Source: Candidatus Desantisiibacteriota bacterium (GTDB lineage Bacteria; JACRDZ01). From it: 6,819 nt of DNA. Of the stretch, positions 183-4,262 are shown in pieces; positions within the stretch are counted from its first letter, which is position 1; each line of letters starts with the position of its first letter. The stretch is from NCBI GenBank assembly GCA_016209155.1, contig JACQWU010000009.1:1-6819 (forward strand). The letters are read 5' to 3'. The position numbers were made by a program, and so were the translations under genes. The notes beneath the pieces are model-generated. The model did no database searches. It saw nothing but the letters and a program-made list of their open reading frames with translations, and was not told the DNA's origin.

Positions 183-518
183 TTACATTTTTTTTAATAT
201 ATTTTCCAGTTCTTTTCTGATCTCTTTCAGAAAAAAATTATATTCATGCTTAATATCATTATCGGGGTTTATTTCTTCATGTTTGTCTTTTTGAAGTTTT
301 TTCTTTGCGCCGGCAATAGTATAACATTCATCATACAAAAGGTGTTTTATCCTTTTTATTAATTCAATATCTTTTGTACGGTAAATCCGTTCTCCCTGCT
401 TATTTTTTTCTAAATTTAATATTTTGAATTCCGTTTCCCAATAGCGGAGAACATGCGGTTTTACCTTTGTTATCTCGCTCACTTCACCAATAGAATAAAA
501 CAACTTATCAGTAAACAT
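183..518 (-). CDS. MerR-family transcriptional regulator
   Basis: This 111-residue protein has an N-terminal MerR-type winged helix-turn-helix at about residues 7-77. The recognisable signature is FYSIGEVSEI, followed by VKPHVLRYWETEF (19-31) and a wing with GERIYRTKDIELIKRI (42-57). The 'VLRYWE' form belongs to the MerR subgroup related to HspR and MlrA, not to the metal sensors. No cysteine-rich metal-binding loop is present; the only cysteine is C65. The C-terminal part (about 88-110) is a short charged helix, probably a dimerising coiled coil, and no ligand-binding domain follows. GGGGAT lies 7 nt before the ATG and supports the start. The gene lies between an HU gene and tRNA-Pro on the same strand. 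From memory, MerR genes of this kind often sit beside an IHF/HU gene and tRNA-Pro in Desulfobacterota. The target and signal are unknown. Confidence 0.9.
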   Translation of the reverse strand: MFTDKLFYSIGEVSEITKVKPHVLRYWETEFKILNLEKNKQGERIYRTKDIELIKRIKHLLYDECYTIAGAKKKLQKDKHEEINPDNDIKHEYNFFLKEIRKELENILKKM

Positions 519-538
519 ATTATAATCCCCATATTGCT

Positions 539-747
539 TTGACTGCCTTTTTTAGTTTAAAAATTATGAATCAGTATGATTTTTACATTTAAATCAAAAA
601 GCAAATATTAAATATCAAAATTATGGTGTTCTGCGGACAAATTATTTAATGCATAACTAAAATGTCACGAAGTAACACCTCTATTTTGAATTTTGATATT
701 TAAATTTTAATTTTAAGTTTAATTTTACAACCTAAAAAGTCAGTCAA
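539..747. repeat. 209-bp imperfect palindrome with terminal inverted repeats (MITE-like)
   Basis: The two halves align as inverted copies along almost their whole length. The terminal arms 539-566 and 720-747 match at about 24 of 28 positions and both begin with TTGACTG when read inward. Bases 603-622 and 689-708 match at 18 of 20, including a perfect 15-bp TTAAATATCAAAATT core. GGTGTT (625-630) pairs with AACACC (674-679), weaker similarity continues inward, and ATGCAT (649-654) marks the centre. The left arm carries about 17 extra bases. It fills most of the 339-bp gap between the HU and MerR genes and ends about 9 bp before the MerR ribosome-binding site, so it must form the MerR leader or promoter region. 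No convincing target-site duplication was found. A nonautonomous foldback element is one reading; a structured regulatory leader is the other. No open frame of note lies inside. Confidence 0.65.
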
Positions 748-766
748 CTTGAGTAATTAAGGAATT

Positions 767-802
767 CCCCTCGCTTTAAAAAATTGCCATTAAAGTGAGG
801 GG
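767..802. terminator. GC-rich hairpin downstream of the HU gene, possible terminator
   Basis: CCCCTCGCTTTAA (767-779) pairs with TTAAAGTGAGGGG (790-802) around a 10-nt loop. It lies about 55 nt after the HU stop codon on the minus strand and is the only GC-rich stem in this AT-rich gap, so it probably ends or stabilises the HU transcript. Neither side has a clean T-run. One pair (773/796) is G-U in plus-strand RNA but A-C in minus-strand RNA, so the hairpin is slightly stronger in a plus-strand transcript. It lies outside the palindrome at 539-747, 19 bp from its edge. Confidence 0.45.
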
Positions 803-857: not shown

Positions 858-1127
858 TTATCTTACAGCTTCTTTAAGTTGTTTCCCTGCTCTGAACACC
901 GGTGACATTTTTCCCGGTATCTGAATTTCTTCCCCTGTTTTAGGGTTTCTTCCTTGTCGTGGCGCGCGTTTCTTTACTTCAAAAGAACCTAATCCGGCAA
1001 TGTTGACTTTATCTCCATTTTTTAGAGCATTTTTTATAGTTTCAATAATACATTCAACTGCTTCTGATGCCTGTTTTTTTGATATACCTGTTTCTGCTAT
1101 GCTATCAACTAATTCAGCTTTAGTCAT
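858..1127 (-). CDS. hup: HU-family histone-like DNA-binding protein
   Basis: This is an 89-residue nucleoid protein, against the usual 90 for HU. It forms dimers that bind and bend DNA with little sequence preference. The N-terminal helical part is MTKAELVDSIAE and onward. The family signature runs from GDKVNIAGLGSFEV (38-51) into the basic arm with RNPKTGEEI (60-68). P62 sits at the arm tip, where the proline inserts between base pairs. The C-terminal FRAGKQLKEAV helix is typical. Overall it reads as HU and not as an IHF subunit, though the two families are close. A strong AAGGGGGGTGAG ribosome-binding site (1133-1144) precedes the ATG. The gene starts 36 bp after the gpsA stop and may be read from the same transcript, with termination near 767-802. 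Confidence 0.95.
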   Translation of the reverse strand: MTKAELVDSIAETGISKKQASEAVECIIETIKNALKNGDKVNIAGLGSFEVKKRAPRQGRNPKTGEEIQIPGKMSPVFRAGKQLKEAVR

Positions 1128-2894: not shown

Positions 2895-4262
2895 TTAATT
2901 TTCAGAGGTATTTACTCTTCTATCAGTATTCTTCGATGTTATTCTCTTAATTTTTAGTCTTATAGGAACACCTGTTAAAGGAAAATTAATCCGGAGTTTA
3001 TTTTTTATATAACGCATATAAGAATCATGAAGCTGGCCGGCACCCTTAAAATAAATCGCAAAAGTAGGAGGTTTTATCCTGTCTTGAGTAATATACATTA
3101 ATTTATTATTCCCGCCTTTTTTTGAAAAAACAGGTCTTTTTTCATTTTGAATATTACTGAAAAATTTATTAAGATGGCTTGTCTTTATTCTACCTGCCCA
3201 TAAAGAATAAATTTCAGGAATATTATCCAGCAATTTTGTAATTTTAAGCCCTGTTACCGCTGAAATAAAAAAAACCGGAGCATATTCCATAAACGGCATA
3301 CGTACAAATATTTTTTCTTTAAATAATTTTACAGCATTTTCGCCGTGTTCTGCTAAATCCCATTTATTTACAACCAGAAGACATGCTTTTCCGCACTCTT
3401 CAATGAAACCTGCTATTTTTTCATCCTGTTCGGTTATTTCTGAGGAAGCATCAAGGATAAGCAAAACAATATCTGATTTCTCAATAGCTTTAAAAGTACG
3501 ATTAACACTATAAAATTCAACATTATCATGAATTTTTGCATGTTTACGAATTCCGGCGGTATCTACCAGCATAAAGGTATTATCTTTATACTTAAAATAA
3601 GAATGAATTGAGTCACGTGTTGTTCCCGGAAATTCACTGACAATCGATCTTTCCTCTCCCAGAATGTAATTAGTAAGGGATGATTTCCCAACATTGGGTT
3701 TTCCTACAATAGCAACTTTTATAAATGAATCTGATTCTATATTGCTTGAAGGTATTGTTAAATTGGAAATTATTTTATCCAGCAGGTCTCCTATATTTAT
3801 TCCATGACTTGCGGATACTTCTATCATATTATTAAATCCCAAGCCTCTGAACTCATAAATATTATAATTCTCTTTATAATCAATTTTGTTTATCACAAGT
3901 ATAACATTTTTACCTGATTTTCGCAGCTTTTCCGCTATGTTTTTTTCAAGTGAAGTAATACCTTCATTTATATCCACAACAAAAAGTATAAGACATGCTT
4001 CTTGAATAGCTTTTTCAACCTGTTTATATATATTTGGCATAAAAACATCCTGAGATTTATTTATGGTATCAAGTCCTCCTGTATCCACCAGCATAAAATT
4101 TTTCTCACCCCAGGTACATTCAATATAGTTACGATCACGTGTTACCCCGGGAGTAGAATCAACAATAGCCACATTATGAGATCCGCTTATTCTGTTAAAC
4201 AAAGTGGATTTCCCTACATTTTGGCGTCCTACTATTGCAATAATAGGGATTTCTTCATTCAT
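2895..4262 (-). CDS. der: Ribosome biogenesis GTPase Der (EngA)
   Basis: This essential GTPase with two G domains in tandem assists 50S subunit maturation. It is 455 residues. G domain 1 shows GRQNVGKST (12-20), TPGVTRDR (37-44), DTGG (60-63), NKID (125-128) and SAS (150-152). G domain 2 shows GKPNVGKSS (187-195), PGTTRDS (212-218), DTAG (234-237), NKWD (299-302) and SA (334-335). The C-terminal KH-like domain spans about 355-440 and ends with the usual FPLTGVPIRL. The first P-loop has Q where P is most common. All nucleotide-binding motifs are intact. The ATG shares one base with the TAA of the upstream lipoprotein gene (TAATG), and AGGA lies 9 nt upstream inside that gene, so the two are translationally coupled. 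plsY follows after 11 nt. Confidence 0.98.
   Translation of the reverse strand: MNEEIPIIAIVGRQNVGKSTLFNRISGSHNVAIVDSTPGVTRDRNYIECTWGEKNFMLVDTGGLDTINKSQDVFMPNIYKQVEKAIQEACLILFVVDINEGITSLEKNIAEKLRKSGKNVILVINKIDYKENYNIYEFRGLGFNNMIEVSASHGINIGDLLDKIISNLTIPSSNIESDSFIKVAIVGKPNVGKSSLTNYILGEERSIVSEFPGTTRDSIHSYFKYKDNTFMLVDTAGIRKHAKIHDNVEFYSVNRTFKAIEKSDIVLLILDASSEITEQDEKIAGFIEECGKACLLVVNKWDLAEHGENAVKLFKEKIFVRMPFMEYAPVFFISAVTGLKITKLLDNIPEIYSLWAGRIKTSHLNKFFSNIQNEKRPVFSKKGGNNKLMYITQDRIKPPTFAIYFKGAGQLHDSYMRYIKNKLRINFPLTGVPIRLKIKRITSKNTDRRVNTSEN

Follow-up and report, generated by a model that had tools for sequence, protein, structure and literature searches.

A window of 6,819 nt (the whole stretch of DNA analysed here), which lies in contig C170 of the 3.08-Mb draft genome of Candidatus Desantisiibacteriota bacterium (79% complete, 352 contigs), carries two minus-strand genes, HU upstream and merR downstream. 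The gap between them is 339 nt long and 220 nt of it are occupied by an imperfect palindrome, whose parts are listed with the flanking genes in Table 1. A GGGG motif near the merR start, beside the left end of the palindrome, is a candidate ribosome-binding site. The 102 nt between the palindrome and HU are extra as well and are not repeated in the genome. They include a strong hairpin at 766-802, on the HU-merR strand and without a T run, which may be the 3' end of HU or a processing structure. An AT-rich inverted repeat of 17 nt (94%) at 819-859 overlaps the HU stop codon.

Table 1. Coordinates of the genes, the palindromic element and its parts in the window.
Feature	Position	Strand	Details
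merR, MerR_1 HTH regulator	183..518	-	PF13411, E 1.5e-19; start codon 15 nt from left end of element
TA dinucleotide, left border	532..533	.	TA at 12/13 family ends
Whole foldback (MITE-like) element	534..753	.	220 bp; ends by comparison with other copies; fold z -5.3/-5.7
Left terminal inverted repeat TTGCTTTGACTGCCTTTTTTAG	534..555	+	Divergent variant, common to right end of C290:~24.6 kb
Core repeat, left arm: hairpin GTTC-TGC-GGAC and AT-rich stretch	591..639	-	Model R1, E 6.8e-12; copies at C126, C175, C74, C289, C4
Core repeat, right arm: hairpin TGTCAC-GAA-GTAACA and AT-rich stretch	663..713	+	Model R1, E 6.2e-12; copies at C126, C175, C326, C10, G001
Right terminal inverted repeat CTCAAGTTGACTGACTTTTTAGG	731..753	-	Exact 14-nt ends elsewhere in genome; end model R2
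TA dinucleotide, right border	754..755	.	TA at 12/13 family ends
Separate hairpin, 13-bp stem CCCCTCACTTTAA/TTAAAGCGAGGGG, outside element	766..802	-	From sequence; single copy in genome
HU-family DNA-binding protein gene	858..1127	-	PF00216, E 1.3e-34

Structure of the palindrome

An earlier note on this DNA had described a palindrome running end to end over 539-747. The palindrome itself was recovered; the coordinates proved slightly short, since alignment with other family copies places the bounds at 534 and 753, with TA on each side. All the matching pieces named in that note are present, namely TTGACTG at 539 with its inverse at 741-748, GGTGTT at 625-630 with AACACC at 674-679, ATGCAT at 649-654 and the internal repeat AAATATCAAAATT/AATTTTGATATTT, within 581-622 and 689-730. 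Repeat finding alone detected the inner 42-nt arms, with 76% complementarity. Within imperfect terminal inverted repeats (TIRs) of 22-23 bp, the element contains a core made of two inverted arms, each formed by an AT-rich stretch of ~30 nt and a small hairpin (left arm, GGTGTCC-TGC-GGACA; right arm, TGTCAC-GAA-GTGACACC). The element contains no open reading frame of 60 aa, and among Rfam families above the gathering score a tRNA-Pro was the sole match in the window, with none for the element.

Local alignment of the two halves gave a score of 37, where shuffles averaged 19.5 (sd 3.3), and a match of this quality was reached by 3 of 2000 shuffles of 534-753 and by 1 of 2000 of 539-747. The palindrome thus passed the shuffle check that the earlier note had named as able to remove the claim. 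When 220-bp segments were compared across the 6.8 kb, the best half-to-half scores fell at starts 541-576, at the palindrome. As RNA, positions 530-755 fold with -49.2 kcal/mol on the plus strand and -52.5 kcal/mol on the minus strand, and none of 200 dinucleotide shuffles folded as well. That the palindrome is a chance product of AT-rich DNA finds some ground in the composition of the region and in the fact that arm matches of such score arise in about 1/1000 shuffles; we nevertheless regard it as having practically no likelihood, since the fold z-scores are -5.3 (+) and -5.7 (-) and both the ends and the core are repeated in the genome, copies which by themselves rule it out.

Copies of the ends

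Copy numbers rest on searches of the genome. BLAST with positions 530-755 against the host genome returned 18 hits at E<=1e-3, a count that includes matches of the palindrome to itself, while a control from the same gap (754-862, 109 bp) matched itself alone and is therefore single copy. The element is thus dispersed, and is not the single-copy sequence that the earlier note had said would argue for a leader structure. The end sequence, TA followed by CTCAAGTTGACTGACTTTTT, recurs at eight further loci. The pattern YTCAAGTTGACTGA describes the right end in the window and has exact copies at C43 and C290 and copies with one mismatch at C227, C326, C343 and others; because the reversed control pattern gave many matches at up to two mismatches, the closest matches alone were used. 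The consensus derived from the aligned ends is TA followed by CTCAAGTTGACTGACTTTTTT. An end model (R2), trained on nine of the ten ends that it reports, found these ten in the host genome at E<=8.6e-4, the one at C315 being new, and it found no end below E 0.01 in three genomes of the same phylum. The only one of the 13 listed ends without a TA border is that of C343, which has AA instead; TA makes up 0.13 of the dinucleotides in the intergenic DNA of the window.

By their ends the copies form a small family of about nine loci, diverged and in many cases partial. A complete, near-perfect foldback with near-perfect TIRs and TA on both sides lies at C290:21194-21276 (-39.9 kcal/mol), and a very short copy in the same contig, at ~24.6 kb, pairs the left-end variant of the window with its right-end variant, one at each end. 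At C326, C315 and C227 the match to the window extends beyond the TIR into inner sequence and exceeds all of 500 shuffles; the C326 copy is a deletion derivative whose left end is still TACTCAAGTT. The copy at C343 resembles the window in the TIR alone, its remaining match being not above shuffles.

Two candidates were set aside: a 6-bp duplication, TATTTA, at C290:21194-21276 is absent from other copies, and a match to the TIR at C126, which falls at the 3' end of the coding sequence of proS, was taken as chance. Searches of plasmids, phages and viral contigs returned no homolog. At C93 (~3536-3566), close to a contig end, a tRNA-like sequence is immediately preceded by a very short remnant with TA at its borders, TACTCAA...TTGAGTA.

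The core repeat and its relation to the ends

The core recurs at seven further loci, as whole or half copies. A model of its arms (R1) identified 11 arms at E<=2.3e-10, spread over eight loci of the host genome, window included, with arm pairs in the window, at C126 and at C175, and one scored arm each at C326, C10, C74, C289 and C4; these E-values are not independent, because most of the arms trained the model, and the BLAST matches are. In G001, a genome of the same phylum and another family, the model found one arm clearly (E 1.4e-8) and another three weakly. Contigs C112 and C104 of that genome also contain diverged intergenic foldbacks of the same plan, with AT-rich ATTTTGA arms and a small hairpin, which are possibly an ancient phylum-wide repeat. 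The half copies at C74 (1880-2045 of its read stretch) and C289 (2190-2370) share longer flanks, in which an upstream piece resembling the 3' end of uvrA is directly followed by the core arm, so that flank and arm were duplicated as one stretch.

REP and REPIN sequences are known as short hairpins that carry a tag such as GTAG, occur in very high copy number and have an associated RAYT. That the core arms belong to a family of this kind, spread by a tyrosine transposase and not by a TIR transposase, would agree with the occurrence of single arms at C74, C289 and C4 and of inverted pairs in the window, at C126 and at C175. However, the conserved companion of the hairpin is here an AT-rich arm of ~30 nt and not a short tag, and copies number tens at most, which makes this origin improbable.

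The core is also found at loci that lack these ends, so that the copy in the window probably combines two repeat families. In the window, at C326 and at C315, the same GTAAAATTAAA linker connects the right outer end with the right core arm, and this shared junction suggests that the composite moved as a unit, at least partly; we consider it probable that it is one unit in at least some copies. It might instead be argued that two unrelated repeats were nested by chance, the core having inserted into a small TIR element without joint mobility. Such an event would account for the core without outer ends at C126 and C175 and for the outer ends without core at C290 and C43, but it is at odds with the junction repeated at three loci, and we hold it to be possible though rather doubtful. 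A broader and more speculative proposal, offered here only tentatively, is that of a modular element with shared TA-flanked ends and interchangeable interiors, one of these interiors being the two-hairpin repeat, which would also move, or be reduced to single arms, alone. That repeat would be old enough to have left traces in G001, and the element would here separate an ancestral HU-merR transcription unit.

The HU-merR junction and other probable insertion sites

Comparison of the gap in relatives was in line with an insertion. In G002, a genome of the same phylum with the order gpsA-HU-merR, only 13 nt separate the HU stop from the merR start; in G001 and G003 merR directly follows gpsA, and in most of the distant genomes in which HU adjoins merR the two are tightly spaced. 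A search with gpsA for close relatives gave distant matches only (best 56% identity) and the nearest relative is of the same phylum only, for which reason no strict empty site was found.

These comparisons also bear on another reading of the palindrome, as a leader or regulatory RNA structure of merR that is single copy and conserved at the locus. The strong fold on the merR strand and the site just upstream of the merR ribosome-binding site would suit a leader. Yet the sequence is dispersed in the genome beside unrelated genes, is missing from the HU-merR and gpsA-merR junctions of same-phylum relatives and has no Rfam match. The dispersed copies, together with the short or absent gap in relatives, rule out such a leader as the origin of the element, and we consider the explanation very unlikely; a secondary leader role of the element is possible.

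Other copies are also intergenic, according to gene names read from the sequences and not by profile: between trpB and trpA (C227), between proS and a rimP-like gene (C126), and between csrA and a NAD-dependent epimerase gene (C326). The fragments at the first two junctions indicate that core-gene junctions have been invaded by these repeats more than once. The C227 fragment (~1490-1541 of its read stretch) appears to provide the last codons of trpB.

Discussion

Bacterial MITEs are AT-rich, small sequences with TIRs, 5'TA3' termini and a target-site duplication, a stable fold and no protein product (PMC2229807). The element in the HU-merR gap is AT-rich and non-coding, forms a stable stem-loop as RNA, has terminal inverted repeats and exists in multiple dispersed genomic copies; its 220 bp slightly exceed the usual MITE length of <200 bp (PMC2229807), and two other copies measure about 80 and about 54 bp. 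The suggestion of the earlier note that it is MITE-like is upheld by the dispersed copies with shared ends, the TA on both sides, the lack of an ORF and the near absence of the HU-merR gap in a relative of the same phylum. Therefore, we propose, with a probability of roughly 85%, that a copy of a non-autonomous, TA-flanked MITE-type foldback element was inserted into a once tight HU-merR junction and that the palindrome is this copy in decayed form.

Judging from this anatomy, the terminal inverted repeats would be the sites for a transposase supplied elsewhere, and TA would be both the target and the sequence duplicated at insertion, a duplication that is hard to prove because TA is self-complementary and common here. 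In the genome, 79% complete, no autonomous element with the family ends was found. The one DDE_3 gene detected, of IS630 type, is partial and lies at a contig end (C139); it is a doubtful partner, since the 1.96 kb read there contained no TIR match within 6/20 mismatches. The divergence of the copies suggests that the family is old here and that the copy in the window has probably lost its mobility.

The proposal of the earlier note that the element could supply or block the merR promoter did not gain support. Promoter-like sites are not clearly enriched (6, against 3.1 +/- 1.8 in shuffles), and of the TTGACT sequences that had been viewed as inward -35 boxes, the one on the merR strand is without a scored -10 partner, and the one at 539 on the plus strand has a -10 partner matching at 9/12 but is directed away from merR. 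A search for an intrinsic terminator within the element found none. An effect at the RNA level is plausible by analogy: provided that HU and merR are still transcribed together, their RNA would form a foldback of ~200 nt whose end lies about 15 nt ahead of the merR start codon, and this could decouple the expression of the two genes via polarity or RNase cleavage. Analogous RNA-structure effects have been described for ERIC and Correia insertions (PMC10969869; PMC3049150).

Several known repeats resemble the element. The pneumococcal BOX is also modular, with differing inner modules between common ends and variable length (PMC3049150), although no repeated boxB-like module was seen here. Correia or NEMIS elements share TIRs of about 24-26 bp, TA termini and forms that either have or lack an internal block (PMC2229807, PMC3049150); they are neisserial and some carry promoters and IHF sites, whereas promoter evidence was not found for the present element. 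RUP, with 107 bp, about 110 copies and IS630-Spn1 as its proposed mover, is likewise small, AT-rich, non-coding and intergenic, with TIR ends, TA termini and a foldback (PMC2229807, PMC3049150), but by description it differs in having a proposed partner IS, while here the copies are few and diverged and no partner was found. ERIC or IRU is an imperfect palindrome between co-directional genes with TA termini and a long RNA foldback, which can sit in operons (PMC2229807); also by description, it differs in being enterobacterial and 127 bp long, against 220 bp and a two-hairpin core here. The element is best read as a member of a new family of a well-known kind and is otherwise ordinary. It adds a record of a small repeat family of mobile type from a lineage for which very few genomes exist, and the gpsA-HU-merR order here provides a clear example of a tight junction opened by an element of this sort.
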